From Oceanobacillus damuensis (GTDB taxonomy: Bacteria > Bacillota > Bacilli > Bacillales > Amphibacillaceae), in the NCBI RefSeq assembly GCF_001618145.1, contig NZ_KV392043.1, forward strand, positions 1-64,000: a DNA stretch of 64,000 nucleotides. The letters are read 5' to 3'. Shown here in pieces: positions 15,534 through 35,170 of this stretch. The notes below the pieces were generated by a model, which worked only from the letters and a program-made list of their open reading frames with translations, was not told where the DNA came from and made no database searches. The position numbers and the translations under genes are program-made. The number at the start of each line of letters is the position of its first letter. Position 1 is the stretch's first letter.

Positions 15534-16484
15534 TTGCTATTTGAAAAAATTGGTGAAAAAGTAGCTTCTCTTGATAATATTCATATTCCTGAGAAATTTG
15601 GTCCTATTAAGCGTTTAGTTGATGAGCATAAGGTGAAAACATATGCTTTTACACAGGATTATTATCACTCATGGACATTTGGTAAATCACCCTTTGGGAG
15701 GAGGACAGCTCAAGCTGGAATTTTATTAAATGATCTAGCAGCACTTTATTATTTAAACTATGATCCCAACACTAACAGAGGACTTCATACAGAAGAAGAG
15801 ATATGGTTTCATAATCCCGTGTTTGTAAACGAAGAAGTTACTCTCTCGGCAGAATATGTAGAAAAATATAATAAAAATAATAAAGGTTACGTGGTTATGG
15901 AAGCAGAGGCAAAAGGTGAAGATGGCAGGAAGATAATTACCCGACGTGGAACAGAGATATTTGGGGATGAAACCGGATTGGAGTCAAAGGGAGCTAAAAA
16001 GGAAAAGAAAAATGCTATAGATAAAAAAAATATCGTAACTGGTGAATATGATAAAAGTCTCGAACCAATAGAAAAAGCGAATGGCGAGATTCGAATCGGC
16101 CGATCATTATTTCCTGTAAAGAAGCAAATCACACCTGAACAAGCAGCTGTTTATTCTTTTGTGGGTGATTATCTTGAGAATATTCATAATAACTTAAATT
16201 ACGCTCGAAAATCAGATTTAGATTTTCCTATAGTTCAAGCCTTACAACAAGTTGGCTATTTAATAGAAATGTTAGTGGATTTCTTTGAATGTAATTGGTT
16301 TAGTACTGGGTGGATGAAGGTTAAATTTATCCGTCCGGTAAGAACGGATGAAAGTGTGTTGGTCCGTGGTGTTATAAAGGATATTATTAATAACGGTGAT
16401 ACCAAAACAATTAAGTTGGAGGTTTGGACAGAGAATAATAAGGGTGAACTGACAACTGTTGGATGGGCAAGTGCTAAGATATAA
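15534..16484 (+). CDS. MaoC-like double hot-dog hydratase
   Basis: MaoC-type enzymes hydrate 2-enoyl-CoA thioesters to (R)-3-hydroxyacyl-CoA. Two hot-dog domains can be made out. The first (about 30-150) contains WFHNPVFVNEEVTLSAEYVEKY. The second (about 200-310) contains YSFVGDYLENIHNNLNYA, the counterpart of the catalytic GD-x-N-P-I-H-x-D motif with one extra residue, then PIVQALQQVGYL. The start is TTG at 15534, eight bases after AGGGGG. The 316-residue length resembles double-domain hydratases such as mesaconyl- or itaconyl-CoA hydratases. The exact substrate is unknown. It forms an operon with the class III CoA-transferase, a logical activation-hydration pair. Confidence 0.75.
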   Translation: MLFEKIGEKVASLDNIHIPEKFGPIKRLVDEHKVKTYAFTQDYYHSWTFGKSPFGRRTAQAGILLNDLAALYYLNYDPNTNRGLHTEEEIWFHNPVFVNEEVTLSAEYVEKYNKNNKGYVVMEAEAKGEDGRKIITRRGTEIFGDETGLESKGAKKEKKNAIDKKNIVTGEYDKSLEPIEKANGEIRIGRSLFPVKKQITPEQAAVYSFVGDYLENIHNNLNYARKSDLDFPIVQALQQVGYLIEMLVDFFECNWFSTGWMKVKFIRPVRTDESVLVRGVIKDIINNGDTKTIKLEVWTENNKGELTTVGWASAKI

Positions 16485-16565
16485 AAGTTAATAGATAGTG
16501 ACTTTGTTTAAAAGGCTACACTTAAGTATATTATTTTATCTACTTTTTTGATAAAAGGAGGAACT

Positions 16566-17753
16566 ATGTTGAATGGGGCTCTAAATGGAATTAAAGTAGT
16601 TGATTTATCTAGACTTATTGCTGGTCCTTATTGTGGTATGTTACTTGCGGATATGGGGGCTGAAGTCATTAAGGTAGAAAAATTAACTGGTGAAGATACT
16701 AGACATGTACCACCGCTTGTAGAGCAAGACAGTCTTTATACTGTTGCTTTAAACCGAAATAAAAGAGCAATTACCTTAGACTTCCGTCACCAAAAATCAA
16801 AGGATGTTTTAACAAGGCTCTTTAAGTGGGCGGATATTATTATAGAGAATTTTCGTCCTGGTACGCTTGAAAAAATGGGGTTTAAAACTGATCAAATTCA
16901 TGAAATTAATTCTAGTGCGATAATTGTACGTTGTTCTGGTTTTGGGCAGACTGGTCCGCTAAAGCACCGTCCTGGTTTTGATCCTATTGCTCAGGCTATG
17001 AGTGGGTTGATGAATATGACTGGAAGAAGTGAAGACCCACCATTATTATCTGGTACATCAATTATTGACTATTCTACGGGAATGCATGCAGCGATTGGAG
17101 CACTTTCCGCACTCCATCACAGAAATAGAACAAATAGGGGACAAGTAATAGATGTGTCATTATATGAGAGTGCTGTATCAATGCTTGTAAGTGCTATACC
17201 TAACTATCATTTGAATCAAAGTATACCAAAACGAACAGGGAACCAGGATAGATATTCAGCTCCAGCAAACACATATCAGACTAAAGATGGCTGGATTTAC
17301 CTAAATGCTTTTAATGATAGACTTTGGTTGAAATTATGTAAAGCGATGCAAATGGAAGATTTGGCAACAGATGAGAGATATGAAAATGTGAGTCTTCGTG
17401 TACAAAATGTGAATGAAATTGATGATATAATTCAGCAATGGTTAGCAGAGTACAATCGTGAAGAGGCCGCTGAATTGTTAGATAAGTACGGTATACCATG
17501 CGGCCCAGTACAGAGTGTGGGAGATTTATTGAGTGATGAGCATTTGAGGGAGAGAGAGCAAATTATTAATGTAAATCACCCAACTGTAGGGGAGATTCCT
17601 GTGAGCGGAATTACTATAAAATTATCAGATACCCCTGGAAAAATTCGTTATGACCCTCCATTAATTGGTCAACATAATCAAGAAGTTTATTTAAATGAGC
17701 TTGGTTTTGAAGAAGAGGAGTTTAATAAACTAAAAGAAGATGGTGTTATTTAA
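16566..17753 (+). CDS. Class III (CaiB/BaiF) CoA-transferase
   Basis: Class III enzymes move CoA between carboxylic acids through an aspartyl intermediate. The 395-residue product begins LNGIKVVDLSRLIAGPYCGMLLADMGAEVIKVE, the family hallmark, and shows IIENFRPGTLEKMG and CSGFGQTGPLKHRPGFDPIAQA. The catalytic Asp would be in the segment GRSEDPP...IIDYSTGMHA. GGAGG precedes the ATG at 16566. It likely activates the acid hydrated by the MaoC-like enzyme 80 bases upstream. Substrate unknown. Confidence 0.88.
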   Translation: MLNGALNGIKVVDLSRLIAGPYCGMLLADMGAEVIKVEKLTGEDTRHVPPLVEQDSLYTVALNRNKRAITLDFRHQKSKDVLTRLFKWADIIIENFRPGTLEKMGFKTDQIHEINSSAIIVRCSGFGQTGPLKHRPGFDPIAQAMSGLMNMTGRSEDPPLLSGTSIIDYSTGMHAAIGALSALHHRNRTNRGQVIDVSLYESAVSMLVSAIPNYHLNQSIPKRTGNQDRYSAPANTYQTKDGWIYLNAFNDRLWLKLCKAMQMEDLATDERYENVSLRVQNVNEIDDIIQQWLAEYNREEAAELLDKYGIPCGPVQSVGDLLSDEHLREREQIINVNHPTVGEIPVSGITIKLSDTPGKIRYDPPLIGQHNQEVYLNELGFEEEEFNKLKEDGVI

Positions 17754-17867
17754 AGTTATTTTTTATAGCTTATTGTTACTAAACGGCTATTTATAATATA
17801 ACAATTAAACTAGAATGGTAAGGTTTTTGCAATCTTTATACAAAGCTTCATATTTTTTTAGATTAAA

Positions 17868-17883
17868 ATGGAAACGCATTCAT
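17868..17883 (+). promoter_or_regulatory. Catabolite-responsive element (cre) for CcpA
   Basis: ATGGAAACGCATTCAT fits the cre consensus WTGNAARCGNWWWCA at every position. It lies 65 bases before the ceramidase-like gene and just after a TTGCAA...TATTTT promoter-like pair (17827-17856). CcpA bound there would block transcription when preferred sugars are present. Binding is inferred. Confidence 0.7.
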
Positions 17884-17947: not shown

Positions 17948-19306
17948 ATGACAAAGTGGAAATCAGGTTTTTACTCGGAGAAATTCACACCGAAACTTGA
18001 ACTTGGTTTGGAGATGGCGGGTTATACAGAACAACGGACTGCAGATAGTGTTTTAGATGATTTATTTATTTCAGCAGTTGTTCTTCAGGAATCAAAGAAC
18101 CTAGTTGCTTTTGTTGGAGTTGATGTATTAGCCGTTACTGGTGAGTCTGTTCGAAATGTTAGGACATTAGTTGAACAGCAAACAGGCATCCCGGGACCTA
18201 ATATCATGATTGCGGCATCGCATTCGCATACAGCACCGACAACTGTTGAAATATTTAATACGGTTCCCGACTTTAATTGGTTGAAAGATTGGGAAGCACA
18301 AATTGCCAATACTATTATAGAAGCTTATAACCGATTAAAGCCTGCTAATGTTTCTGTAGGGGAAGGATCAGATGATTCGTTTATGTTTAATAGACGTCTT
18401 TTGAACTCAGATAATCAAGTAGAAATGACTATTGATCAAAAACACGGAAAAACAGATTTGACCCCTGAAGGACCAATTGATCCGTCCGTTAACGTTGTAA
18501 GAATTGATGATGAAAATGGAAAACCAGTTTCTGTAATTGTAAACTATGGGAATCATTTGGATATCCCAACAGGAAGGCGATATTCTGCAGACTACCCTGG
18601 TGTTATGACAAAGACTATACAAAAACTACTAGGGGAAGATGTAGGAGTAGTATTTCTAAATGGAGCTTGTGGAGATATTCAACATTTAAACTATTTCAAT
18701 TCTGATGATATAAGCACGCGTGGAAGATATTGGGATAGTAAAGGTGAAGAAAAGATGAATAAATACGGAACTGTTCTGGGATGTGAGGTAGTAAAAACTG
18801 CTCTTACAATGAATGATCGTTTACGTGGTGGGTCATTAGTTAGTTATAGCAAGAAGATATCTGTTCCAATCCGAAAAGTCGATGAAGAAACTTTGGCATG
18901 GGCTAATGAAACTATGAACAATCCTAATTCAACTTACCGAGAAAAAACCCTAGCAAAAGAAGCTTTACAAGTTTATTCCTTAGAGGGAACAAATGTAGAG
19001 ATGGAAATACATGCAATTTCCATTGGGGATTCTGCAATTTTAGCAATACCAGCCGAAGTATTTGTGGAAATTGGGTTGCAGATTAAGGAACAATCTCCTT
19101 TTAACAATACGATGATTTCTGAACTAAGTAACGACTGGGTTGGGTATTTACCTACTGAACGTGCTTTTGAACATGGAGGCTATGAAACCAGAGTTGCACG
19201 CTCAAGTAAGTTAACTGAATCTGCAGACAAGATAGTTATTGAAGCTTCATTAAAACTACTACAAGAACTAAAGGAATTAGCTGCAGACAAAGTAGCAAAT
19301 AAATAA
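17948..19306 (+). CDS. Neutral ceramidase-like amidohydrolase
   Basis: The product resembles the N-terminal catalytic domain of neutral/alkaline ceramidases, zinc enzymes that hydrolyse amide-linked acyl chains. Seen are the zinc-binding ASHSHTAPT (residue ~94), NYGNHLDIPTG and SADYPGVM, and the NGACGDIQ motif that corresponds to the oxyanion/Ser region. There is no signal peptide and no C-terminal Ig-like domain, and the length is 452 against about 640 for true secreted ceramidases. It is therefore probably a cytoplasmic relative acting on a small imported amide or ester. A cre site precedes it and the TRAP genes follow. Actual substrate unknown. Confidence 0.75.
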   Translation: MTKWKSGFYSEKFTPKLELGLEMAGYTEQRTADSVLDDLFISAVVLQESKNLVAFVGVDVLAVTGESVRNVRTLVEQQTGIPGPNIMIAASHSHTAPTTVEIFNTVPDFNWLKDWEAQIANTIIEAYNRLKPANVSVGEGSDDSFMFNRRLLNSDNQVEMTIDQKHGKTDLTPEGPIDPSVNVVRIDDENGKPVSVIVNYGNHLDIPTGRRYSADYPGVMTKTIQKLLGEDVGVVFLNGACGDIQHLNYFNSDDISTRGRYWDSKGEEKMNKYGTVLGCEVVKTALTMNDRLRGGSLVSYSKKISVPIRKVDEETLAWANETMNNPNSTYREKTLAKEALQVYSLEGTNVEMEIHAISIGDSAILAIPAEVFVEIGLQIKEQSPFNNTMISELSNDWVGYLPTERAFEHGGYETRVARSSKLTESADKIVIEASLKLLQELKELAADKVANK

Positions 19307-19360: not shown

Positions 19361-20398
19361 TTGAGGTTATTAAAAATGATGTTGTTCTCTATTTTAATTT
19401 TGTCATTAGTTGCTTGTGGTGGGGCTGACGAATCTTCTACTAGTGAAGGTTCAAGCGACTCGGGGTCAGAAGAAGAGAAAATTGTAATAAGGGCTGCAAA
19501 TTATAAAAACGAAAAGGAAATAACAAGCCTTGCATTAGATAAGTTTGCTGAAGAAGTGGAGAGGTTATCGGAAGGAAGAGTTGAGATAGATCCTTATCAT
19601 AATGCAGAACTAGGAGACGAGGCTGACAGTATAGAGCGAATTCTCGCTGGATCAATTGAAATGGGGGAGGTTGGAAGTAGTGGCTTATCTCAGTTTGGAA
19701 TGAATGCTACACCAATTAATGAACTACCATATTTGTTTGATGATTTCGCAGATTTTAGGGAAATTCTAAACAATGAAGAAGTAAGAGGGTTACTAAGTGA
19801 AAATTTAGAAAATAATGGGATGAAATTACTTGCTTTTAGATACCATGGCGCGTCACATATAATGTCTACTTCTCCGTTAGAATCCATTGAGGACTATAAA
19901 GGTAGAGATTTTAGAGCGCCTGAATTTGATATAACAATTGAATTGTTAAAATCATGGGGTGGTTCTCCTAATGTTATTCCATATACAGAAGTTTATAATG
20001 CTCTCCAAACAGGTGTTGTTGAAGGGTATACAGCAACTTTAACAGCAACATTATCAGAAAGAACATACGAAGTTGCAAATAATCTAAATATGACTAATCA
20101 CATGTATACTCCGTCATATCTTGTTATGAATAAAGATTACTTTGAGAGTTTTTCTTCAGATGTTCAGGAAATACTGCTTGAGGCGGCGAAAATTTCTGAA
20201 GACTACCAAATAGGATTAGCAGAGGATCAGGAAGAAAAGGACTTACAACAATTGGAAGCTGAAGGTGTAAACATTGTTAAGTATGATGATCTTACTCCAT
20301 TTAAAGAGGCTATAGCTGATAAAAGACAAGGCCTAGCTGAAGCGATGGGACCAGAGGCAGTAGAACTCTATGAAACTATCTTAAAAATAAACGAATAA
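19361..20398 (+). CDS. TRAP transporter substrate-binding lipoprotein (DctP family)
   Basis: DctP-type proteins bind carboxylate ligands outside the cell and hand them to the DctQM membrane pair. A lipoprotein signal ends at LVACGG (lipobox). The body has the family block NALQTGVVEGYTATLTATLSE and an Arg-bearing segment SPLESIEDYKGRDFRAPE. The conserved ligand-carboxylate Arg is expected near this region. The start is TTG at 19361 after GGGGG. An ATG five codons in is also possible. The ligand is likely an organic or sugar acid. It is followed by a stable hairpin, then dctQ and dctM. Confidence 0.92.
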   Translation: MRLLKMMLFSILILSLVACGGADESSTSEGSSDSGSEEEKIVIRAANYKNEKEITSLALDKFAEEVERLSEGRVEIDPYHNAELGDEADSIERILAGSIEMGEVGSSGLSQFGMNATPINELPYLFDDFADFREILNNEEVRGLLSENLENNGMKLLAFRYHGASHIMSTSPLESIEDYKGRDFRAPEFDITIELLKSWGGSPNVIPYTEVYNALQTGVVEGYTATLTATLSERTYEVANNLNMTNHMYTPSYLVMNKDYFESFSSDVQEILLEAAKISEDYQIGLAEDQEEKDLQQLEAEGVNIVKYDDLTPFKEAIADKRQGLAEAMGPEAVELYETILKINE

Positions 20399-20499: not shown

Positions 20500-20973
20500 T
20501 TGAATTACTTTAATAAAATTAAAAGTGTGTATACAACTTTCGTGGAATATAGTGCCTTTATTCTTTTAACTACAATAGTAGTCTCGGTATTATATGGTAT
20601 TTTAAGTAGAACCCTTACCTTTTTACCATTTGTTGTTTGGACAGAAGAGTTATCTAGATTTAGCATCATCACGTTGGTTTTCCTGGTTTCGGGTTTGTCT
20701 ATACGAAAAGGAATACATGTGGGTTTAGATTTACTATTAGAAAAGATAACCGGGGTATGGAATAAAATAATAACGACAATTATAAACATTTTAGTTATCG
20801 CATTACTAAGTATTATAATGATCGTTACATTTGAATATATGGGTACTACAAGTCAAATTTCACCGGCACTTAAAATGCCTATCTCTTACCTTTATATATT
20901 TGTTGTTATCGGTATGGCGCTAATGATCATTGAATTATTCTGTCTTACAACTTTGAAATGGAGGGAGGAGTAG
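20500..20973 (+). CDS. TRAP transporter small permease (DctQ family)
   Basis: A 157-residue protein with four hydrophobic helices (about 14-36, 48-68, 85-107, 124-146) and the family segment FVVWTEELSRFSIITLVFLVSGLSIRKG (read as EELSRF...RKG). It starts at TTG 20500 after AGAAAGGAG. The stop lies five bases before the dctM start and inside its ribosome site, so the two are coupled. Confidence 0.9.
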   Translation: MNYFNKIKSVYTTFVEYSAFILLTTIVVSVLYGILSRTLTFLPFVVWTEELSRFSIITLVFLVSGLSIRKGIHVGLDLLLEKITGVWNKIITTIINILVIALLSIIMIVTFEYMGTTSQISPALKMPISYLYIFVVIGMALMIIELFCLTTLKWREE

Positions 20974-20978
20974 TTTAC

Positions 20979-22262
20979 ATGGAATTATTATTGTTATTTG
21001 GGTTAATGTTAGTGCTTATCTTTTTTGGGATGCCTGTGGTTTTTAGCATTGGATTATCTGCATTTGTTGTAATACTTTTATTGGGTAATATTCCACTATC
21101 AATTATTCCTTCTTTACTTATTTCTGAATTAAATTCATTTACGTTTGTTGCAATACCACTTTTTATTTTAGCTGGAGAATTATTAAATGAAGGTTCACTT
21201 ACGGATAAAATTGTCAGTTTCTCAAAAGCATTAGTTGGAAGTGTGCGTGGAGGACTAGCACATGTTAACGTTGTAGCAAGTATGTTATTTGGTGGAATTT
21301 CAGGTTCTACAACAGCTGATACAGCCGCAATAGGTCCTGTTTTGATTCCTTCTATGGTAAAGTCCGGTTACCATAGAGATTTTAGTGTTTCTCTAACAGT
21401 AACCTCTTCTACTATAGGTGGTATCATACCTCCTAGTATTATGATGATTATACTTGGTGCTCTAACAGGACAATCTATAGGTCAATTGTTTTTAGGTGGA
21501 ATAATACCCGGTATCATAATAGGTGCAGGTTTACTAATTACAAGTTACTTAATCTGTATAAAGAGGGATTATAAAGAGAAAGAACCTTTTTCTTGGCCAA
21601 AAGTCAAGGAGACAGGTAAAAAGGCAATTTGGGCAACATTAGTTCCTTTAGCTATCATTTTAGGAATCACTACAGGGACAACAACCGCATCAGAGGCAGG
21701 GGTCTTGGCTGTAGTATTATCCTTATTTATAGGAGTTTTTATATACAAAGAAATTAATTCCTTTGCTAAATTAAAAAAGGTATGTGTTAATACCGCACTA
21801 ACTTCATCCATGGTTATGTTACTGTTAGCATTCTCTACATTATTTGCAGAGGTCCTATTTAGATTGAGGTTTCAAGAACAAGTATCGGCCTTTTTGCAAT
21901 CTCTTACGACGGATCCATTTCTGATTATTTTATTATTAGTTCTTTTTATTTTCATAATAGGTATGTTTATTGATACAGTAGTCATCCTAATGTTATTTTC
22001 TCTTCCATTTATGCAGATAGCGGTGGACTTTGGATTTGATCCGATTCATTTTGGGTTAATCATGATTATGACGTCTTTTATTAGTGCGTTAACTCCTCCG
22101 GTTGGGGTGCTCTTATTTTTAGGATGTGCAATCGGAGAAATAAGTGTAATGAAAGTGCTGAGAATACATTCAGTATTTATCGCAACACTTTTTATAGTAG
22201 TGTTACTAGTTGTTATATTCCCTGGTCTGGTTACATTTCTTCCTCATAACTTTATGGATTAA
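20979..22262 (+). CDS. TRAP transporter large permease (DctM family)
   Basis: The 427-residue membrane protein has about twelve hydrophobic segments. It carries PLFILAGELLNEG, FGGISGSTTADTAAIGPV, IGGIIPPSIMMII, and PPVGVLLFLGCAIG, all DctM signatures. The ATG at 20979 follows GGGAGGAG. An upstream in-frame start at 20958 lies inside dctQ without a ribosome site. DctM carries the sodium-coupled transport path. A second, truncated dctM 3' end lies after the IlvD gene. Confidence 0.93.
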   Translation: MELLLLFGLMLVLIFFGMPVVFSIGLSAFVVILLLGNIPLSIIPSLLISELNSFTFVAIPLFILAGELLNEGSLTDKIVSFSKALVGSVRGGLAHVNVVASMLFGGISGSTTADTAAIGPVLIPSMVKSGYHRDFSVSLTVTSSTIGGIIPPSIMMIILGALTGQSIGQLFLGGIIPGIIIGAGLLITSYLICIKRDYKEKEPFSWPKVKETGKKAIWATLVPLAIILGITTGTTTASEAGVLAVVLSLFIGVFIYKEINSFAKLKKVCVNTALTSSMVMLLLAFSTLFAEVLFRLRFQEQVSAFLQSLTTDPFLIILLLVLFIFIIGMFIDTVVILMLFSLPFMQIAVDFGFDPIHFGLIMIMTSFISALTPPVGVLLFLGCAIGEISVMKVLRIHSVFIATLFIVVLLVVIFPGLVTFLPHNFMD

Positions 22263-22488: not shown

Positions 22489-23562
22489 ATGAATGCATTT
22501 AATAAAGTACGTCTTGGAATTATAGGTACTGGTTCAATAGGCACTATTCATATGAAACAATTTAGTGAATTACCTGATGTTGAATTAACAGCAGTAATGA
22601 ATAATACATTATCTATTGCTAGGGAACGTGCAAAGAAATTTGGTATTAAAAAAGTCTATTCCAATAGTAGGGATCTTATTCAAGATGTACATGTAGATGC
22701 TGTTATTATTGCAACGCCAAATAAGTTTCATTCAGAAATGGCGACTCAAGCACTTAAAGCAGGTAAACATGTACTATTAGAAAAACCTATGGGGATGAAT
22801 GCTGATGATTCAAAAGATATTGTACATGTATTAAAGGATTCAAAAAAGGTCTTCATGTTAGGACATCATAGAAGATGGGATCCCTTCATAATGAAAGCAA
22901 AAGAGTTTATTGATAAAGGAGCATTAGGTCATATTTATTATGTCAAGACAGGATACATACGTCGTAAGGGAATTCCGGGGTGGGGAAGTTGGTTTACGCA
23001 GAAAAAAGATTCCGGTGGCGGCGCTTTAATGGATATTGGTGTTCATATGCTTGACCTAGCAATTTGGATGATGGGGGAAATTAAACCTATTTCAGTTTAT
23101 GGTACTGTTTTTTCAGAACTTGGTACTTTTAAAAAAGGAATAGGTTCTTGGGGAAAGCAAAATTGGAATGGTTATTTTGATGTTGATGAATTAGCTTCTG
23201 CTCAAATTAAAATGGATAATGGCTCCGTTTTAAATTTAGAGGTAAGTTGGGCGGCGCATACAGAAACCGATAATGCTCCATTTATACATTTAATGGGAAC
23301 AAAGGGTGGAATCTCCGTGAGAGAACACAAGGGCGTTTTCATGACAGAGTTATTGGACCATAAATCTGACATTAACTTCGAACTCCCCAAATTAGACGAA
23401 GGACCACGAAAAAGAATGAGCCAACATTTCATTGATTGTATTCGTAAAGAGGAAAAACCTATTACATCTGCAATGTCCGGGTTATTGAATAACATGGTTA
23501 TTGACGCAATTTATCGGTCTTCTTATACAGGGAGTGAAGTAAAATTAAATGTGGATATGTAA
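22489..23562 (+). CDS. Gfo/Idh/MocA family oxidoreductase
   Basis: Family members oxidise or reduce sugar or polyol hydroxyls with NAD(P). The Rossmann motif GIIGTGSIGTIH is at residues 10-21. The catalytic-lysine motif LLEKPMGMN is near 95-103, and the C-terminal domain contains GGGALMDIGVHMLDLAIW with the conserved Asp-x-x-x-His. Length 357. GGAGGG precedes the ATG. It is placed directly before the sugar-acid dehydratase, so it may make the acid (via a lactone) that the dehydratase uses. Substrate unknown. Confidence 0.88.
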   Translation: MNAFNKVRLGIIGTGSIGTIHMKQFSELPDVELTAVMNNTLSIARERAKKFGIKKVYSNSRDLIQDVHVDAVIIATPNKFHSEMATQALKAGKHVLLEKPMGMNADDSKDIVHVLKDSKKVFMLGHHRRWDPFIMKAKEFIDKGALGHIYYVKTGYIRRKGIPGWGSWFTQKKDSGGGALMDIGVHMLDLAIWMMGEIKPISVYGTVFSELGTFKKGIGSWGKQNWNGYFDVDELASAQIKMDNGSVLNLEVSWAAHTETDNAPFIHLMGTKGGISVREHKGVFMTELLDHKSDINFELPKLDEGPRKRMSQHFIDCIRKEEKPITSAMSGLLNNMVIDAIYRSSYTGSEVKLNVDM

Positions 23563-23622
23563 GAAGTAACAAAGTTGATTAGTTATTGGAGGGTTTCATA
23601 TTTAATGGGCGGAGGGATAAAA

Positions 23623-25478: not shown

Positions 25479-25486
25479 AAAAATTA

Positions 25487-25514
25487 ACCGATTGAATCGT
25501 TTCAATTAATCGGT
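25487..25514 (+). promoter_or_regulatory. Candidate LacI-family operator (site 2)
   Basis: A nested palindrome: outer arms ACCGATT (25487-25493) and AATCGGT (25508-25514), inner box TTGAATCGTTTCAA (25492-25505) centred on CG, as is usual for LacI-family operators. The 11 bases ATTGAATCGTT recur in reverse complement at 15411-15421. It lies at the transcription start of the operon that ends just before the LacI-family gene. Confidence 0.65.
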
Positions 25515-25536
25515 AAAAAGAAAAGGAGAATGTAAA

Positions 25537-26466
25537 ATGAAGAAGTTTAGCTTTAAGGATGGAATTATTGGTGCAACAATTACCCCTTTTGATAATGACT
25601 TTAATGTTGATGAGGTTAGTTTAAGGAAATTAGTTGAGTATAATTTAAAAGGTTCACGTGTTAAAGGTTTAGTATGTAATGCATTTGCGGGTGAAACGTT
25701 TTATTTAACTTCAGAAGAAAGAAAAAGAATTATTGAAATTATGGTAGATCAGGTTGATGGTCGTGTTCCAGTTGTAGCAGGTATTTGGGCGGAAGGAATT
25801 AAAGATGTAATAAGAGAAACTGAAATAGCAGAAGAGGCAGGGGCTGATGTAAGTTTATTATTCCAACCATTCTCTTTTGCAAGAGGGGTAGATCAAACAC
25901 CTGAGGTATCTGTAAGGTTTCACAAGATTATTGCAGAATCTACAAATTTACCAATTATTGCTTTCCAAACTCGTGTTAATTCCGGTACCCATGTAGATTC
26001 TGAAACACTTGCAGAAATAAGTAAAATAGACAAAGTAATCGGTATCAAATATGCACAGTTTGATATGGAAAAATTCAATGCAGATGTTAAGGCGGTTAAA
26101 GAAGTTGGTCATCAAGCAGAAATACTTACAGGTATTGATACAGTTCTAGCACCAAGTATGTATCCATCTGATGGAGGTCTGCTAGGGTTAACGAGTGCGA
26201 CTCCTAACTTTCTTAGTGAATTAATGGATTTAGTAAAAGCTGGGGACATGAAAGCTGCGATGGATTTAGAGGCAAAATATTACGACCTTGTTTCTTCTAT
26301 TTATGTAAATCCAAAAACGGATATCCCGGCAAGATTAAAACAAATTCTTGTTGAGTTAGGAATTATTGAAACATCACATGTTAGAGAACCATTTAATCAA
26401 TTGAGCGAGGAAGAGAAGAGTAAGTTCTCTAGGCTTGTAAAAGAATTAAATAAAGAGGAGCTTTAA
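25537..26466 (+). CDS. DapA/NAL superfamily lyase or dehydratase
   Basis: These class I aldolase-fold enzymes form a Schiff base with pyruvate-type keto acids. The Schiff-base Lys171 is in VIGIKYAQF, 28 residues after position 143, exactly the spacing of Tyr133 and Lys161 in DHDPS. Here position 143 is Phe (IIAFQTR), so the usual general acid/base Tyr is missing. The G-T-T-G-E loop reads NAFAGETF. The 309-residue length is normal. In a sugar-acid pathway it could cleave or dehydrate a 2-keto-3-deoxy acid. It is not DHDPS. It overlaps nothing and lies two bases before the CoA-transferase. Confidence 0.85.
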   Translation: MKKFSFKDGIIGATITPFDNDFNVDEVSLRKLVEYNLKGSRVKGLVCNAFAGETFYLTSEERKRIIEIMVDQVDGRVPVVAGIWAEGIKDVIRETEIAEEAGADVSLLFQPFSFARGVDQTPEVSVRFHKIIAESTNLPIIAFQTRVNSGTHVDSETLAEISKIDKVIGIKYAQFDMEKFNADVKAVKEVGHQAEILTGIDTVLAPSMYPSDGGLLGLTSATPNFLSELMDLVKAGDMKAAMDLEAKYYDLVSSIYVNPKTDIPARLKQILVELGIIETSHVREPFNQLSEEEKSKFSRLVKELNKEEL

Positions 26467-27991: not shown

Positions 27992-28004
27992 TGGAGGTGA
28001 TTTT

Positions 28005-28784
28005 ATGTCAGAAAACTTATTAGTTGAGATTCAAGGTTCAGTAGGGATCATTACTATTAATAAAGAAGAACAGAGAAATAGTTTAAACATTGAAACGTTA
28101 AATAATTTAAAAAATGTTTTGCAGTCTTTTTCGGATAATAAAGAGGTTAGGGCAGTTATTATAACTGGAAGTGGACCTAAAGTTTTTGCAGCAGGTGCTG
28201 ATCTTAAAGAAGCTATCAAGTTAACCAAGGAAGATAGAAAAACACAGACTGAATTAGGACATGAAGTATTTCAGATGATTGAAAACTTTAGAGCTCCTGT
28301 CATAGCTGCAGTAAATGGGCATGCTCTTGGTGGTGGGTGTGAACTTGCTTTGGCATGTGATATTCGTATCGTTGAAGAACGTGCAAAAATTGGCTTAGTA
28401 GAAGTGGGAATTGGTACGATCCCAGGATGGGGTGGTACGCAAAGACTATCCAAAATTGTTGGATTAGGAAATGCAAAAGAAATGATATTAACAGGAATTC
28501 CATTATCAGCCCAGGAAGCGAAGGAAGTTGGCTTGGCGAATAAAGTGGCGGAAAGTGGAACAGGATTAGTGCTTGCACTCGAGTTAGCAGAAAAAATAAG
28601 TAAAAATTCGCCATATGCTGTTCAAGTCGCCAAATCTTTAGTTAACCAGTCTAGTTTAGGTACACTACCTACAGGCATTGAGTTAGAGAAGAAGGCAAGT
28701 GATTTAATATTTATATCTCATGACAGAACAGAAGGAATTAAGTCATTTTTAGAAAAGCGTAAACCAAACTTTACAGGGGAGTGA
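28005..28784 (+). CDS. Enoyl-CoA hydratase/isomerase (crotonase family)
   Basis: The 259-residue product has the oxyanion-hole segment FAAGADLKE, NGHALGGGCELALACD with the first catalytic Glu, and KIGLVEVGIGTIPGWGGTQRL, where the second Glu of the hydratase dyad lies. Both catalytic acids are thus present, favouring hydratase over isomerase activity. GGAGGTGA precedes the ATG at 28005. An upstream in-frame ATG lies within the CoA-transferase gene. Crotonases give (S)-3-hydroxyacyl-CoA, opposite to the MaoC-like enzyme. Confidence 0.9.
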   Translation: MSENLLVEIQGSVGIITINKEEQRNSLNIETLNNLKNVLQSFSDNKEVRAVIITGSGPKVFAAGADLKEAIKLTKEDRKTQTELGHEVFQMIENFRAPVIAAVNGHALGGGCELALACDIRIVEERAKIGLVEVGIGTIPGWGGTQRLSKIVGLGNAKEMILTGIPLSAQEAKEVGLANKVAESGTGLVLALELAEKISKNSPYAVQVAKSLVNQSSLGTLPTGIELEKKASDLIFISHDRTEGIKSFLEKRKPNFTGE

Positions 28785-28791: not shown

Positions 28792-30228
28792 ATGATTACT
28801 AATAAGTTATATATTAATGGTGAGTGGATGGATGCTTTATCTAAAGAAACTTTTCCTTCTATCAATCCATCAACAGGAGAAATTATAGCTGTTGTACCGA
28901 AAGCTGGGGGAGCAGAGACAAAATTGGCAATTGATGCTGCGTATAACGCATCAAAAGAATGGGCTAAAACAACGGTATTCAAACGATCTGAATTGCTCCA
29001 TAAAATTAAAAATCTAATACTTGAAAATTCCGAGAGTCTAACACGCTTATTAACAATGGAACAGGGGAAACCGTTATATGAGGCTGAGATGGAAGTGAAT
29101 GGTTCTGCAAAGATATTTGAGCTGTATGCTGAAGAGGCTAAAAGAATAAATGGTGAAACCCTTCCAAATGTTGATAGTAAGAAAAGAAATTTTGTTAATA
29201 AAGTGCCAATCGGTGTTGTTGCTGCAATAACTCCATGGAACTTCCCTCTACATATTTTATGTAGAAAAATTTCAGCAGCTTTAGCTGCAGGGTGTCCAGT
29301 TCTTGTTAAGCCAGCTAGTGACACTCCATTAATTGCACTTGCACTTGCTAAATTATTTGAAGAAGCTGGATTTCCGAAAGGAGTAGCAAATTTCATCGTA
29401 GGAGACACAAAACAGATTGGTAATGAAATATTTAATAGCCCAAAAGTAGCGGGAGTTTCATTTACTGGTTCGACCGCTGTAGGCAAAAAGATTATTGAAG
29501 CTTGTGCCTCTACGGTAAAACACGTCTCAATGGAACTGGGTGGGCATGCGCCTATCATCGTTTATGATGATGCTGATATTGACTTAGCTGTTGAGGGTAC
29601 ATTAATTAACAAACTAAGAAACTCTGGACAAACGTGCGTATGTGCGAACAGAATCTATGTACACAAAAACGTAGTAGAAGAATATACAACAAAACTAGCT
29701 GAAAAAATGAATAAAAAAACTCAAGGAAATGGTTTAGATAACACTGATTTAGGTAGTTTGGTAAATGAAGAAGCAATCTCGAAAATAGAAACGCATGTAA
29801 AAGATGCCCTTGATAAAGGTGCAACTCTTGTAACAGGTGGATCCAGGAACAAAGAAATGCAAACGGGATACTACTATTTACCTACTATTTTACAAGATAT
29901 TCATGAAGAAATGGAACTAATGAAAGATGAAACATTTGGACCTGTTGCACCAATTATAGAATTTGATGATGATGAAAAAATTATCGAAAGAGTAAATAAT
30001 ACACCAAATGGCTTAGCTGCTTATTTCTATACAAATAACTTGAAGAAAGTTTATGAAGTAAGTGAACAACTTGAATTTGGAGTTGTTGGTGTAAATGATA
30101 CAACACCTGTTGTTGACCATGGTCCATTTGGTGGCGTGAAACAAAGTGGAATTGGAAGAGAAGGCGGAAAAGAGGGTATTGAGGAATTTCTTGATTCAAA
30201 AGCTGTATCTATTCGTCTAGAAAAGTAA
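28792..30228 (+). CDS. NAD(P)-dependent aldehyde dehydrogenase, succinate-semialdehyde type
   Basis: A 478-residue ALDH. The nucleotide-binding PWNFPLHILCRKI, FTGSTAVGKKI, the general-base Glu in MELGGHAP and the catalytic Cys in SGQTCVCANR are intact, and EFGVVGVNDTTPVVDHGPFGGVKQSG ends like GabD (read as VDHGPFGG). The Cys-x-Cys arrangement is common in succinate and 2-oxoglutarate semialdehyde dehydrogenases. In this operon it would oxidise the aldehyde released by the DapA-family enzyme. It follows the crotonase by seven bases. Confidence 0.88.
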   Translation: MITNKLYINGEWMDALSKETFPSINPSTGEIIAVVPKAGGAETKLAIDAAYNASKEWAKTTVFKRSELLHKIKNLILENSESLTRLLTMEQGKPLYEAEMEVNGSAKIFELYAEEAKRINGETLPNVDSKKRNFVNKVPIGVVAAITPWNFPLHILCRKISAALAAGCPVLVKPASDTPLIALALAKLFEEAGFPKGVANFIVGDTKQIGNEIFNSPKVAGVSFTGSTAVGKKIIEACASTVKHVSMELGGHAPIIVYDDADIDLAVEGTLINKLRNSGQTCVCANRIYVHKNVVEEYTTKLAEKMNKKTQGNGLDNTDLGSLVNEEAISKIETHVKDALDKGATLVTGGSRNKEMQTGYYYLPTILQDIHEEMELMKDETFGPVAPIIEFDDDEKIIERVNNTPNGLAAYFYTNNLKKVYEVSEQLEFGVVGVNDTTPVVDHGPFGGVKQSGIGREGGKEGIEEFLDSKAVSIRLEK

Positions 30229-30258
30229 TTTATTTTAAATAAGATGGGGGATTTTTAT

Positions 30259-31455
30259 ATGAATGGAATATACAATGCATCACCAAATCAATTTGAATTT
30301 CAACAAGCATTTCATCAATATATTATTTTAACACGTATTATTTCTGGTCCTGGTTGTGTTAGTGAAGTTGGAGCTCATGCAGAAAAATTAAAAGGAACAC
30401 ATGCCCTAGTTGTAACAGACCCTGTGATCAGCAAATTAGGATTAACGGAACCGATTATTGAGTCTTTACAAAAGAATAATATTGAAACAATAATTTTCAA
30501 TGAAGTAGAAGAAAATCCACATTGGCAAACAATTGATAAAGGTGGACAAATCATTAAAGAAAACAATTGTGATATTGTCATTGCGATAGGTGGAGGTAGC
30601 TCCATTGATGCTGCTAAATCAATGGCAATGATGGGAACTAACGAAGGTTCTATTCTTGATTGGGAAGGTATTGATCTATTTCCTAATGATCCTATTCCAT
30701 TTATGGTAGTCCCGACTACATGTGGTACAGGAAGTGAAGTAACGAGAGGTTCCGTCATTACAGAAAGTTCTCGCTCTAGAAAGTTAAATGTAGGTAGCGA
30801 CAGAATGCGTGCAAATGTAGCATTTTTAGATCCTTTAATGCTTGCTAATATTCCAGCCTCTGTTGCATCTGCAACTGGAGTTGACGCATTAACACATGCT
30901 ATTGAAGGATATGTGTCAAATATTGCAACTCCACTAACAGATTCATTACTAATTGGGGCTATTAAACTCATTTCTGATAATCTTAGATCGGTAGTAGCCG
31001 ACCCTAAAAATGTAACAACAACTTTAAACATGCAGTTTGCAGCAACCATTGCTGGAATGGGATTCAATAATGCGCAGTTAGGAATTGTCCATGCGATGTC
31101 TGAACCACTTTCACCAGTAGCCGGTGTTCCGCATGGTGTTGCAAACGCAATCTTGTTACCACACTGTATGGAATTTAATTTAAATGGACGAATTGAGAAA
31201 TTTGCACAAATAGCGGAAGCGATGGGTGAAAATGTAGAAGGTCTTCCAAAGCATATTGCGGCTGAAAAATCACTAGATGCAGTAAGAAAATTAGTTGAAG
31301 ATGTAGGAATACCATCAGGTCTTGCGGATGTGGGAGTGAAAGAAGAACATATATCCCCAATGGTTGATCAGGCTAAAGTTCATGGACTACTAAACTTTAA
31401 CCCGCGTCGTGTAAATGCAAAGGAAATTGAAGATATATATCGTAAGTCTCTATAG
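30259..31455 (+). CDS. Iron-containing (group III) alcohol dehydrogenase
   Basis: Group III ADHs interconvert alcohols and aldehydes or hydroxy and keto acids. The NAD-binding GGGSSIDAAKSMA, PTTCGTGSEVT and the metal ligands in DALTHAIEGYVS and HAMSEPLSPVAGVPHGVANAI (Asp-His-His-His) are intact. GGGGGA lies before the ATG at 30259, which I prefer over the ATG at 30244. Length 398. With the ALDH it allows an aldehyde intermediate to be oxidised or reduced. It is the last enzyme before the regulator. Confidence 0.9.
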   Translation: MNGIYNASPNQFEFQQAFHQYIILTRIISGPGCVSEVGAHAEKLKGTHALVVTDPVISKLGLTEPIIESLQKNNIETIIFNEVEENPHWQTIDKGGQIIKENNCDIVIAIGGGSSIDAAKSMAMMGTNEGSILDWEGIDLFPNDPIPFMVVPTTCGTGSEVTRGSVITESSRSRKLNVGSDRMRANVAFLDPLMLANIPASVASATGVDALTHAIEGYVSNIATPLTDSLLIGAIKLISDNLRSVVADPKNVTTTLNMQFAATIAGMGFNNAQLGIVHAMSEPLSPVAGVPHGVANAILLPHCMEFNLNGRIEKFAQIAEAMGENVEGLPKHIAAEKSLDAVRKLVEDVGIPSGLADVGVKEEHISPMVDQAKVHGLLNFNPRRVNAKEIEDIYRKSL

Positions 31456-31524: not shown

Positions 31525-32523
31525 ATGGTTACAATTAAGGATGTTGCTGCAGCATCAGGTTATTCTAAAGCGATGGTCTCTTATGCATTAAATAATAAAG
31601 GTAATTTAAAGGAAGAAACAAAACAGAAAATATTACAAGCAGCAAAAGAGTTAGGTTATGTTCCTAATTCTGCTGCTGCAGCATTAAGATCAAAAAGGAA
31701 AAATGTTGTTGGACTAATATTAAGAGATATTTCTAACCCAACCTTCGTACAATATGCAAATTATATTGAAAAAACTTTGGCTGAGTATGGTTACAGGTTA
31801 TCCATTTTCACAACATATGGGCAAAAAAGGGTTAACGATGCAATTATATCGTTCTGTGGAGGGGGAAGGTTAGATGGGTTAATTTATTCTGTTGTTGCTT
31901 TAGATGAGAAAACCCTAACCTCCATTAACCAATATAGCACAAACAGTGTTGTACTTTCAGTTTCTGAAGTGAGTAATGTCGAATACGGGGCATATATCGC
32001 AACAGAACATTTATTGGGACAAAATCATTCTATTGTAGCACACATTGGATCTCCGGGAAACCATCCAAATTCAAACTTTATGATAAATGGCTATAAAAGG
32101 GCATTAAAAGTACACGGGAAAGCATTTTCGCCAGATTTAATTGTACAAGGTGGTTATGATCTTGAAGATGCAGAAAAGGCAGCAGAAAAGCTAATCAGAA
32201 AATGGGGAGTGCCATTAGCAATTTTTACCGCAAGTGATTATGCTGCTTTTGGAGTATTAAATTATTTACGTCGTGCTAAGCTCAAATTAGGAAAGGATGT
32301 TTTTTTAGTTGGATGGGATGATATTCCTTTTGCAGAGTCAGTAGGGTTAACTACGATTGCAATAGACCATGAAGCTATTGCGCGAAAGTCAGTATATGAG
32401 CTATTAAATGAACTTGAACCAAATATAGAATTACCATCCATAAATATACCAGATTATGAACTGATAGTACGGGAATCTTGCCATGAGGAAAGTGGAAATT
32501 TATTAAAAAATGGTTGCCATTGA
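31525..32523 (+). CDS. LacI-family transcriptional regulator
   Basis: The N-terminal HTH reads VTIKDVAAASGYSKAMVSYALNNKG and is followed by the hinge helix PNSAAAALRSKR and a periplasmic-binding-protein-like effector domain. The 332 residues are normal. It lies in the middle of the catabolic cluster, 69 bases after the ADH. It is the natural repressor for the shared palindromes at 15411 and 25487. The effector is probably a pathway intermediate or the substrate. Regulation is inferred. Confidence 0.92.
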   Translation: MVTIKDVAAASGYSKAMVSYALNNKGNLKEETKQKILQAAKELGYVPNSAAAALRSKRKNVVGLILRDISNPTFVQYANYIEKTLAEYGYRLSIFTTYGQKRVNDAIISFCGGGRLDGLIYSVVALDEKTLTSINQYSTNSVVLSVSEVSNVEYGAYIATEHLLGQNHSIVAHIGSPGNHPNSNFMINGYKRALKVHGKAFSPDLIVQGGYDLEDAEKAAEKLIRKWGVPLAIFTASDYAAFGVLNYLRRAKLKLGKDVFLVGWDDIPFAESVGLTTIAIDHEAIARKSVYELLNELEPNIELPSINIPDYELIVRESCHEESGNLLKNGCH

Positions 32524-32554
32524 TTATTGGTATTCCTAAAGAAGGAGATATATA

Positions 32555-33556
32555 ATGTATACCATTATCTTGAGCCACACACCAAAAGAACTAGAAATGC
32601 TTTACCCAGAAAAATCCCTAAATAAGCTTAAGCAATTAGGAAATGTTATACTTAATCCATATGATAGACAGCTAACAACAAAAGAAATGATAGAAAAGGC
32701 GCATGAGGCAAATTTTATTATTACGACAGTAAGATTTGAAGGTAATGAGGAGCTATTTGAAAACTGTCCTAACCTAATAAGCTTTATTCGGTCTGGTGTA
32801 GACATAAGAAATATAAATATGGAAGCAGCTGCTCGAAATGGGGTGTTAGTATGTAATTGCCCCGGCATCTATGAGGCTCCAGTAGTGGAGTTAGTTATTG
32901 GCTACTTATGTGCAATTAGTAGGGGCATCATTAAACACCATACTGAATTAAAAAATGGCGTTGCCCAAAGATATACGTTACCTGATTTATGGAGGAAATC
33001 TCTAGGTTTAATTGGATATGGAGCAATTGCTAGAAAAGTTGCTAAAGTTGCAAAAGCATTAGGTATGAAAATTCTAGTCCACGATCCATTTATTAATGAG
33101 GTTGAATCCGATGAGCAACTTTGCAGTATGGAGGAACTCTTAAAGAACTCTGATTTTGTCTCACTGCATGCCGTTTTAAATAGTGAAACAGAAGGTATGA
33201 TGGGGGAAAAGGAATTTTCATTAATGAAATCAACTGCATGGTTCATTAATTCTGGACGCGGTTTACTTGTTCAAGAGAAAGCGCTATATGAGCATTTAGT
33301 TGAAGGTAAAATTGCAGGAGCAGCATTAGATGTGTTTGCAACAGAACCTAATATTGTAGAAAATCCACTAGTGAAATTGGATAATGTTATCGCTACTCCA
33401 CATATTGGAGGCTGGTCTTCAAGAGTTTATGAAGAACTCTCACTACGCACAGTGGAATTAGTTGAGATGATGATCTCAGGTGAAATGCCAGACTCAACCT
33501 ATAATAAAAATTTAATTAAGGAAAATGGTAGACTAGAAAAACTAATTCATACGTAA
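32555..33556 (+). CDS. D-isomer-specific 2-hydroxyacid dehydrogenase
   Basis: The product has the Rossmann motif LGLIGYGAIARKVAKVAKALG, the catalytic Arg in FINSGRG, Glu in FATEPN and His in ATPHIGGWS, i.e. the full R-E-H triad. It would reduce a 2-keto acid or oxidise a D-2-hydroxy acid with NAD(H). It follows the regulator by 31 bases with an AAGGAGA site and is closed by a terminator at 33606. It may serve the keto acid released by the DapA-family or PLP enzyme. Confidence 0.9.
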   Translation: MYTIILSHTPKELEMLYPEKSLNKLKQLGNVILNPYDRQLTTKEMIEKAHEANFIITTVRFEGNEELFENCPNLISFIRSGVDIRNINMEAAARNGVLVCNCPGIYEAPVVELVIGYLCAISRGIIKHHTELKNGVAQRYTLPDLWRKSLGLIGYGAIARKVAKVAKALGMKILVHDPFINEVESDEQLCSMEELLKNSDFVSLHAVLNSETEGMMGEKEFSLMKSTAWFINSGRGLLVQEKALYEHLVEGKIAGAALDVFATEPNIVENPLVKLDNVIATPHIGGWSSRVYEELSLRTVELVEMMISGEMPDSTYNKNLIKENGRLEKLIHT

Positions 33557-33670: not shown

Positions 33671-33713
33671 TATTTTAGATTGTTATTAAACTAGGAAAGG
33701 ATTAACTAAACAA

Positions 33714-34169
33714 ATGATTGAAAAGAAAATGGAACAATTAGGATATCCGCTACCTAATGCAAGAAAACCATTATATGAATACGTTCCTGTTGTTATTCAT
33801 AATAATTTAGCGTTCGTGAGTGGCCAATTACCGCGCGTTAGCGGTCAACTCAAATATTGTGGAAAAGTTGGTGAAGAGATAACCATTGAAACAGCACAGG
33901 AAGCTGCCCGCATTTGTATTGTGAATGCTTTGACTGTATTAAATTATGAGCTTGGCTCCCTTGATAAAGTGAAGCGGATTGTAAAAATGACGGGTTTTGT
34001 TAATGCGAGACATGGATTTAAAGATCAATCTACTGTAATTGATGGCGCTTCAAATCTTCTTGTTGATATATTTGGAGAAAAAGGTCAACACGCCCGGTCA
34101 GCAATCGGAGCTGGAGATCTACCAGGTCAATCTCCAGTTGAAATTGAACTAATTGTTGCGACTGAATAG
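33714..34169 (+). CDS. RidA/YjgF family enamine-imine deaminase
   Basis: RidA proteins hydrolyse reactive enamine/imine products of PLP-dependent dehydratases. The conserved Arg that anchors the substrate carboxylate is in HARSAIGAGDLPGQSPVEIE, matching the RidA signature. The 151-residue length is slightly above the ~130 of RidA, as in YjgH-like members. It lies 59 bases before a PLP dehydratase gene, which makes the functional link direct: the dehydratase makes the imine, RidA removes it. Confidence 0.88.
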   Translation: MIEKKMEQLGYPLPNARKPLYEYVPVVIHNNLAFVSGQLPRVSGQLKYCGKVGEEITIETAQEAARICIVNALTVLNYELGSLDKVKRIVKMTGFVNARHGFKDQSTVIDGASNLLVDIFGEKGQHARSAIGAGDLPGQSPVEIELIVATE

Positions 34170-34228
34170 ATATACACTTAGATAAAAATAGCTTTTAAGC
34201 TAAAATTTCGAGTTAAGGAGAAAATCTA

Positions 34229-35170
34229 ATGGTAAATCTTAATAAAATAAAGCAGGCTAGAGAAAATATCTCCAAAATTATTAATGAAACCCCTTTGATG
34301 ACATCGGAAAGTATATCATCAGAAGTGGGTAATCAAATATTTTTTAAATGTGAGCACCTACAAAAAACAGGTTCATTTAAGATTAGAGGTGCCTCAAATA
34401 AAATTATAAATGAAGCTAGTAAAGGTGCAAGGTCGATTGTTGCTGCATCATCCGGTAACCATGGCCAGGCTGTTAGTTATATAGCACGTAAATTAGGTCT
34501 TACCCCAACTATTGTTGTGCCTGCCAATGTTGCGGCTTGTAAACAAAAAGGAATTCGGGCTTATCACGGGAACATAGAGTTTTGTGGGGAAAGCTCTGAA
34601 GAAAGGCTTGGAAGAGCTAAGCAAATTTCCAAAGAGGAAAATGCACCATATGTTCCACCTTACGACGACCCTTTAATTATGGCAGGTCAGGGAACAATCG
34701 GCCTTGAAATTTTAGAGCAATTAGATTCAGTAGATGAGGTTTATGTGCCGATAGGTGGAGGTGGACTTATTTCTGGTGTAGCAACAGCAATCAAAGAAAT
34801 AAAACCACATGTTCGCATTATTGGTGTTGAACCAAAACTTGCAAATGATACATACCTTTCCATTCTAAAAGGTGAAAGAGTTAATATTGGGGGTTCTACT
34901 ACGATAGCTGATGGGTTAAGGACTGCAACACCGGGTGAATTAACTTTCCCTATCATTCAGAAGTATGTAGATGAAATTGTATTGGTTGATGAAGAAGAAA
35001 TAAAAACTGCATTTACGATTGTTCTTACAAGAATGAAGCAAGTAATTGAAACATCTGCCGCTGTTGCAGTTGCAGCAGCTATGACAAGGGAAGCAGAAGG
35101 AAAAAAGATTGTTGCACTTTGCTCTGGAGGAAATGTTGACACTTCTGTTGTTTCTTCCATTTTGGGTTAA
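34229..35170 (+). CDS. PLP-dependent serine/threonine dehydratase-like enzyme
   Basis: A fold-type II PLP enzyme of 313 residues. The Schiff-base Lys is in KTGSFKIRGA. The phosphate-binding glycine loop VPIGGGGLISG and SSGNHGQAVSYIA are present. It lacks the C-terminal ACT regulatory domain of biosynthetic threonine deaminase. It therefore resembles catabolic threonine/serine dehydratases, serine racemase or threo-3-hydroxyaspartate dehydratase. These cannot be told apart from sequence by eye. Paired with RidA, it would produce an imino acid and then a keto acid and ammonia. It is the last gene of the cluster. Confidence 0.88.
   Translation: MVNLNKIKQARENISKIINETPLMTSESISSEVGNQIFFKCEHLQKTGSFKIRGASNKIINEASKGARSIVAASSGNHGQAVSYIARKLGLTPTIVVPANVAACKQKGIRAYHGNIEFCGESSEERLGRAKQISKEENAPYVPPYDDPLIMAGQGTIGLEILEQLDSVDEVYVPIGGGGLISGVATAIKEIKPHVRIIGVEPKLANDTYLSILKGERVNIGGSTTIADGLRTATPGELTFPIIQKYVDEIVLVDEEEIKTAFTIVLTRMKQVIETSAAVAVAAAMTREAEGKKIVALCSGGNVDTSVVSSILG

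Follow-up and report, generated by a model that had tools for sequence, protein, structure and literature searches.

The 64,000-nucleotide stretch of Oceanobacillus damuensis analysed here (the window; positions 1 to 64,000 of NZ_KV392043.1, which is contig C6 of the 4.1-Mb draft genome) carried at 15534-35170 a catabolic cluster in which genes for coenzyme A (CoA) chemistry and for sugar-acid chemistry lay side by side. We read it, with a probability of about 0.4, as a horizontally acquired regulon, carried as cargo at a hotspot behind groEL, for a polyhydroxy (sugar-like) carboxylic acid degraded with CoA-coupled steps. This reading draws on gene content and order, on composition and position, and on an operator-like word common to two promoters. 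The span given in the original prediction was correct, with 17 intact and co-directional open reading frames (ORFs) on the + strand and every listed family present among them (ORF list and Pfam), the ceramidase match being marginal. Its statement that the enzyme combination could not be matched to a known pathway also stood. The features are:

11237..12871, + strand, groEL (Pfam Cpn60_TCP1); the variable region starts behind its 3' end
13065..14146, - strand, tyrosine integrase in two ORFs, catalytic (13065-13703) and arm-binding/SAM-like (13727-14146)
15365..15430, + strand, promoter TTGACA-17-TATTAT (11/12 match) before MaoC, then the operator-like word (12-mer at 15410-15421 on the - strand)
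15534..16484, + strand, MaoC two-hotdog hydratase/dehydratase (Pfam, tree, structure model with pLDDT 89.8)
16548..17753, + strand, class III CoA-transferase, CaiB (Pfam CoA_transf_3, NCBIfam, PDB sequence comparison)
17948..19306, + strand, ceramidase-like putative Zn hydrolase, possible lactonase or esterase (Pfam Ceramidase_alk, alignment)
19361..20398, + strand, DctP, solute receptor of a tripartite ATP-independent periplasmic (TRAP) importer (Pfam, NCBIfam, alignment)
20500..20973, + strand, DctQ, small permease (Pfam)
20958..22262, + strand, DctM, large permease (Pfam)
22489..23562, + strand, Gfo/Idh/MocA oxidoreductase, closest PDB sequence DgpA (Pfam, NCBIfam)
23575..25329, + strand, IlvD/Edd-type hydroxyacid dehydratase, PRK06131 subfamily (Pfam, NCBIfam)
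25450..25520, + strand, promoter TTGACA-17-TAACAT (10/12 match) before DapA, then the operator-like palindrome TTGAATCGTTTCAA (25492-25505)
25537..26466, + strand, divergent DapA-fold lyase of the DHDPS family (Pfam, alignment)
26468..27991, + strand, fused alpha-beta family I CoA-transferase, 507 amino acids (Pfam CoA_trans, NCBIfam)
27969..28784, + strand, enoyl-CoA hydratase/isomerase, ECH_1 (Pfam, NCBIfam)
28792..30228, + strand, aldehyde dehydrogenase, ALDH (Pfam, NCBIfam)
30244..31455, + strand, iron-type alcohol dehydrogenase (Fe-ADH), ErcA or lactaldehyde reductase-like, below cut-offs (Pfam, NCBIfam)
31525..32523, + strand, LacI-family regulator (Pfam)
32555..33556, + strand, 2-hydroxyacid dehydrogenase, 2HADH (Pfam, NCBIfam)
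33714..34169, + strand, RidA-family (YjgF) protein, regulon membership uncertain (Pfam)
34229..35170, + strand, pyridoxal phosphate (PLP) threonine/serine-type ammonia-lyase, PALP, regulon membership uncertain (Pfam, NCBIfam)

The cluster was probably acquired horizontally. Its GC content was 35.6%, against 39.9% at 1-13000 and 39.5% at 58900-64000, and third-position GC stayed between 0.20 and 0.30 in each gene (mean 0.24 for the 17 genes vs 0.34 for six upstream genes). A groEL match was found in 24 of 25 genomes of the genus (own included), and the genes 3' of groEL differed from those of the window in all five congener regions fetched, one of them only 9.3 kb long. In genome G013, GroEL was 98% identical and a 104-residue ORF matched window 12882-13196 (57%), surrounded by different cargo. 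More decayed integrase-like stretches extended to about 15.2 kb (six-frame translation, judged by inspection), and an IS1182 transposase fragment lay beyond the cluster, at 36608. Low GC, the position behind groEL and a split integrase, and the different genes found there in congeners are the reasons for placing the cluster, as cargo, in a hotspot at the 3' end of groEL, a part of the explanation to which we give the probability above.

Within 15000-34999, the two promoters at 15365 and 25450 alone among the + strand promoter-like sites had a perfect TTGACA. The 12-mer ATTGAATCGTTT started 17 and 13 bases past their -10 boxes (15410 on the - strand, 25491 on the + strand), and its copy at 25491 fell in the palindrome, which has a central CG, as LacI-family sites do. 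It occurred at five places in the 4.1-Mb genome (reversed control, none); the three other copies, one inside an ORF and two at most 20 bp behind an ORF, belonged to housekeeping-type surroundings by inspection. When the two promoter regions were shuffled 5000 times, a CG-containing 12-mer was common to both in 6 cases. Intergenic gaps from DapA through 2HADH did not exceed 69 bp, gaps of 194, 226, 207 and 157 bp separated gene blocks, and a GC-rich hairpin lay between DctP and DctQ (20404-20426). The genes are read as one regulon because they are co-directional, have short gaps from DapA to 2HADH, are uniform in third-position GC and have the operator-like word in common. We regard this word as moderate evidence for a single regulon of 15 genes; whether RidA and the PLP lyase belong to it is uncertain. 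The length of the word was rejected as a measure of significance in itself, since shared 12-mers were frequent in shuffles.

Under the favored reading, the LacI protein would repress both units, MaoC-CaiB-hydrolase-DctPQM-Gfo-IlvD and DapA-CoA-transferase-ECH-ALDH-FeADH-LacI-2HADH. DctPQM would import the acid, the Zn hydrolase would open an ester or lactone, and the Gfo/Idh protein would oxidize a hydroxyl. IlvD could then dehydrate a 2,3-dihydroxy acid to a 2-keto-3-deoxy acid, which the DapA-fold lyase would cleave or dehydrate through a Schiff base, the usual Tyr not being used. ALDH and Fe-ADH would handle the aldehyde, while a CoA-transferase would activate the resulting acid for processing by the hydratases. 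Candidate substrates that were weighed include quinate or shikimate, branched sugar acids and 6-deoxyhexonates. MaoC and CaiB may have been recruited from a recurrent module, described below, whose thiamine pyrophosphate (TPP) enzyme and kinase the cluster lacks.

Family assignments came from Pfam; the NCBIfam scan left out LacI, DctQ and DctM, and no NCBIfam equivalog cut-off was reached among the matches listed for the 13 cluster proteins with matches. This includes CaiB, which covered the whole CoA_transf_3 profile (1-366 of 366, 444.6 bits) and whose closest PDB sequence was succinate-hydroxymethylglutarate CoA-transferase, followed by YfdE, a CaiB/BaiF protein, and formyl-CoA transferase. 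NCBIfam matches to the 507-residue CoA-transferase spanned both its alpha half and its beta half. ALDH was closest to succinate-semialdehyde dehydrogenase (SSADH; 594.7 bits, below the cut-off of 646.35), with 394.0 bits to alpha-ketoglutaric semialdehyde dehydrogenase (KGSADH) and 427 to PRK10090, the latter below cut-off. DctP passed NCBIfam subfamily models, and its R185 aligned to R146 of 7t3e. A conserved Arg of acid-binding TRAP receptors contacts the carboxylate, and by this alignment DctP keeps the residue.

The DapA homolog is likely a Schiff-base lyase, as judged from its family (PF00701, 1.7e-45) and from Lys171, the Schiff-base residue, which was invariant in 10 of 10 alignment rows. 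At the canonical Tyr-Asn position it carried Phe143-Gln, and NAFAGE stood in place of a GTTGE-like motif. According to PMC13398020, the DapA superfamily has a conserved catalytic Tyr (Y141 in AbKdgD), except for KdaD, with Glu; the window protein has neither at that position. The Weimberg-type route proposed in the original prediction, and an ordinary aldolase role in general, are unsupported for this reason. The nearest relatives in hand also lacked the Tyr (His or Phe in G821, G559, Priestia, Natrinema versiforme, Burkholderia cepacia and one Thioclava copy); six other aligned proteins kept it, or had Tyr-Lys in Natrinema zhouii. At 1e-38, relatives in 398 genomes of the phylum were only 34% and 31% identical. 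Tyr-less DapA-like proteins also occurred near importer genes in distant lineages (L157, L158 and L159), with a LacI gene as well in Priestia.

The IlvD protein passed the PRK06131 subfamily model (791.3 bits, cut-off 539) and missed the L-arabinonate dehydratase model NF009559 (716.5 bits, cut-off 882). Relatives were found in 10 of 98 related genomes at 1e-180 (own included), with up to 78% identity in the genus. A 2HADH relative lay near IlvD in five of nine annotated IlvD regions (L071-L079; 11 fetched), and single scanned regions held Lar-like, FAH, FAS1-DH and Ldh_2 genes. At L073 (6480-14118) and L074, an IlvD relative (73%) was found with an ALDH gene and, by inspection, with phosphorylase-like, two methylthioadenosine-phosphorylase-like and energy-coupling-factor-type importer genes (labels unverified), a content that suggests a nucleoside or deoxysugar acid route. 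The likeness of the window ALDH to those of the recurrent module (47-48%) was dropped as an argument, the L073 ALDH being equally close (49%).

The ceramidase-like hydrolase scored 31.2 bits to Ceramidase_alk, just below the gathering score of 32.1, and is preferably read as a putative cytosolic Zn esterase or lactonase. Residues H92, H94, H203, E370 and Y400 were invariant in 11 of 11 alignment rows, in a His, His, Glu, Tyr order that we take to be that of the ceramidase Zn ligands; they presumably bind the metal. The Ser nucleophile of neutral ceramidases is carried by a GDxS motif. At that position the window had GDI-Q and the other rows GDIN, GNVN, GNIN, GEIN or GDQA, which speaks against the amidase-like activity first proposed for this protein. 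No signal peptide was evident by eye. Relatives were present in 4 of 98 related genomes at 1e-3 and, at 1e-15, in 17 of 398 genomes of the phylum (both counts include the host genome itself), the best at 38%, and none was found in the genome-contig collection with the ceramidase-like query. A Gfo/Idh relative lay near the hydrolase gene in 7 of 10 annotated hydrolase regions (20 fetched), and none of these 10 held a relative of the window's CaiB, CoA-transferase, ECH or MaoC. Genome G457 had four ceramidase-like copies (L039, L040, L041 and L047), each near a Gfo/Idh relative.

Relatives of the fused CoA-transferase occurred in 7 of 98 related genomes at 1e-120, own included. One of the five such regions read (L082; six fetched) held TRAP, Fe-ADH, ALDH, ECH and 2HADH relatives along with an acyl-CoA dehydrogenase and a RraA-like protein. 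On a Thioclava plasmid, reached through the DctP search, the order was LacI-DapA-GntR-MaoC-fused CoA-transferase-acyl-CoA dehydrogenase-hypothetical-DapA-DctPQM, and it was identical in the plasmid of a second strain. Compared with the window, the fused CoA-transferase of the first plasmid was 43.5% identical over 508 residues, DctP 32.8% and one DapA 29.5%, and this DapA carried the same Phe-Gln. Such recurrence supports TRAP, DapA and fused CoA-transferase as a putative working set. Among six other plasmid neighbourhoods of the fused CoA-transferase, a gene for MaoC or ECH was present in four, and DapA with Gfo/Idh in one (Natrinema zhouii).

MaoC and CaiB belonged to a wider recurrent association. 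Matches to MaoC were found in 5 of 72,556 plasmid records at 1e-5; two of these with the window MaoC formed an alignment (A1), whose search of the genome-contig collection gave 44 loci, selected by MaoC alone. CaiB was present in 40 of them (three of the four without it are short contigs), a TPP enzyme in 39, an FGGY kinase in 29 and DhaK/DhaL in 6. CaiB, TPP enzyme and FGGY or Dha kinase occurred together in 33 of the 44, whereas a background set of 39 loci (20 hydrolase regions plus 19 for IlvD, CoA-transferase or DapA, of similar length and not matched by lineage) had no such case. Hosts were mainly Actinomycetota, Pseudomonadota and Bacillota, regulators were of LacI or GntR type, and transporters varied (Rbs-type ATP-binding cassette (ABC) and TRAP; Tct-type and major facilitator by inspection). 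Many actinobacterial loci within L094-L137 had the order MaoC-(MaoC)-TPP enzyme-CaiB-FGGY, and DhaK/DhaL replaced FGGY in several proteobacterial ones. A Shinella region held Gfo/Idh, short-chain dehydrogenase, TRAP, MaoC and a second MaoC, CaiB, LacI, two pairs of CoA-transferase I genes and one gene resembling shikimate dehydrogenase; genes of the latter type also occurred at L093, L099, L101, L115, L134 and in Caballeronia, and none in the window.

In the window MaoC and CaiB were adjacent, in keeping with membership judged by a CaiB gene near MaoC. Identity of the window MaoC was 51-52% to L094 and L095 and 37-45% to the remaining loci. No TPP enzyme and no FGGY or Dha kinase was found in the window, upstream gap included, the kinase search being confined to the window; TPP enzymes elsewhere in the host genome reached only 29-31% identity. 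No description of the MaoC-CaiB-TPP-kinase module was found in the open PMC literature at the level of titles and the beginnings of abstracts. It is possible, if doubtful, that the module encodes a CoA-dependent pathway not yet described, whose substrate would be a polyhydroxy acid of branched or cyclic structure, and that the window cluster is a Bacillota offshoot, in which IlvD, the Tyr-less DapA lyase and the fused CoA-transferase replace TPP enzyme and kinase. In the module, CaiB would activate the acid, MaoC would hydrate or dehydrate it, the TPP enzyme would cleave it and the kinase would trap a ketose or dihydroxyacetone. The wider module is a more valuable lead than the window cluster.

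Several results weigh against the favored reading. Any 12-mer was common to the promoter pair in 54 of 500 and in 420 of 5000 shuffles, and to any pair of nine regions in 271 of 500; the palindrome was at chance level when three mismatches were allowed. Promoter-like sites (at least 10/12) were at chance overall (84 found vs 78.2 expected), with 10-of-12 sites also before LacI (31459) and 2HADH (32527) and others inside genes, so that LacI and 2HADH could be transcribed apart. No close DapA ortholog was found, only the protein itself in 397 genomes of the order at 1e-50, and the Thioclava MaoC and LacI gave no BLAST match to window proteins at 1e-5. None of the 44 module loci had an IlvD, fused CoA-transferase, ECH, 2HADH, hydrolase, RidA or PALP relative at the threshold used, and only 4 had a DapA relative. 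The loci nearest in MaoC paired weakly with CaiB, which was not found in L094 (7.8 kb) and lay 7.7 kb from MaoC in L095, beside an acyl-CoA-dehydrogenase-like ORF. The Shinella Gfo was only 20% identical to that of the window. DctM was 39-47% identical to module TRAPs, in most cases not above its identity to the DctM of Paracoccus or Sinorhizobium (39-40%), and its likeness was dropped as substrate evidence since other plasmid DctMs scored alike. Finally, the window MaoC was on a long branch, weakly grouped with Bacillus copies (85/81 in the tree), which together with the lack of TPP enzyme and kinase makes the window a diverged relative of the module rather than a full member. The chemistry itself was proposed from families only.

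The cluster could also be two or three independent small clusters side by side in the hotspot, with MaoC-CaiB-TRAP for one acid, Gfo-IlvD-DapA-ALDH-FeADH for sugar acids and RidA-PALP for amino acids, an alternative we regard as quite possible. Accretion at a hotspot is plausible, the four gaps between 157 and 226 bp divide the blocks, and homologs of each part were found in separate contexts. The original prediction had asked for the same set in other genomes: among the cluster genes searched, which were only some, MaoC with CaiB recurred, and no neighbourhood read held the whole set. The genes thus partly fall apart elsewhere, homologs of IlvD, fused CoA-transferase and hydrolase being in other contexts, and this counts in part against the original prediction. 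Separate clusters are, however, at odds with the single strand throughout, the uniform third-position GC, the one LacI gene with a common word before the MaoC- and DapA-headed units, and the recurrence of TRAP, DapA and fused CoA-transferase in Thioclava.

An ordinary non-phosphorylative deoxyhexonate or pentonate route, with the CoA genes in side functions, appeared unlikely. Here Gfo would be the dehydrogenase, the ceramidase-like protein the lactonase, IlvD the dehydratase and DapA the aldolase, giving pyruvate and lactaldehyde or glycolaldehyde, with ALDH and Fe-ADH to finish. The family set fits, and the matches of Fe-ADH to TIGR02638, the lactaldehyde reductase model (335.8 bits), and of ALDH to PRK10090 point the same way, both below cut-off; yet IlvD falls short of the cut-off for L-arabinonate dehydratase, the catalytic Tyr of the superfamily is missing from the DapA homolog, and four CoA genes are left unexplained. 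Least probable, and by our estimate improbable, was the conjugate first proposed, an imported N-acyl or acyl-ester compound split by the hydrolase into halves for CoA chemistry and for sugar-acid or amino-acid lyases. The hydrolase gene does stand between CoA genes and transporter, and a homolog on an Agrobacterium plasmid lies near genes annotated as tannase and polyhydroxybutyrate (PHB)-depolymerase-type esterase. Against this, the ceramidase Ser motif is absent, the hydrolase was in none of the 44 MaoC loci, and its own loci went with Gfo/Idh rather than with CoA genes.

Known systems matched the cluster in part. Weimberg and other non-phosphorylative pentonate and hexarate pathways combine an IlvD or enolase dehydratase, KdaD or KdgD, and a KGSA dehydrogenase. 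The window likewise clusters an IlvD-family dehydratase, a DapA-fold enzyme and a semialdehyde-type ALDH, but its ALDH scores higher to SSADH than to KGSADH, four CoA genes are added, and Phe stands at the position of the KdgD Tyr and the KdaD Glu. The module loci have MaoC and CaiB in common with it, some also LacI, TRAP or ALDH; unlike them, the window has IlvD, DapA, fused CoA-transferase and ECH and no TPP enzyme or kinase. With the Thioclava cluster it shares TRAP, Phe-Gln DapA and fused CoA-transferase (MaoC and LacI by annotation), whereas no IlvD, Gfo, CaiB, ALDH or Fe-ADH is annotated in the 22 kb shown. Itaconate is degraded by Ict-Ich-Ccl, with a CoA-transferase and a MaoC-type hydratase as here, but no citramalyl-CoA lyase (CitE-type) Pfam match was found among the 17 genes. 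Oxalate degradation uses the Frc/Oxc pair; the window CaiB is related to formyl-CoA transferase, but the window has no TPP enzyme, and that of module locus L095 was nearest in the PDB to pyruvate oxidase and acetolactate synthase, with 2-hydroxyacyl-CoA lyase and oxalyl-CoA decarboxylase lower.

If sugar-like acids are indeed degraded as CoA thioesters, carbohydrate catabolism would have a branch that none of the Entner-Doudoroff, Weimberg and inositol schemes covers. Organism names place the module in soil, plant-associated and gut lineages, so that the compound it degrades could be a common one; the window would be a compact form carrying its own transporter and regulator. Tyr-less DapA-like proteins pose a separate question of enzymology.

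Further genes lay downstream in the window. Behind the IS1182 fragment, 37614-43701 held genes for an ArsR-type regulator, for a sugar ABC importer and for a glycoside hydrolase family 2 (GH2) beta-glucuronidase-like enzyme, a region that may supply uronic acid. A 559-residue beta-lactamase-family (PF00144) protein was encoded at 45048-46727, in the same low-GC region. At 59549-61773, a pair with Methyltransf_33 and FGE-sulfatase domains was found, which we take to resemble the ergothioneine genes EgtD/EgtB.

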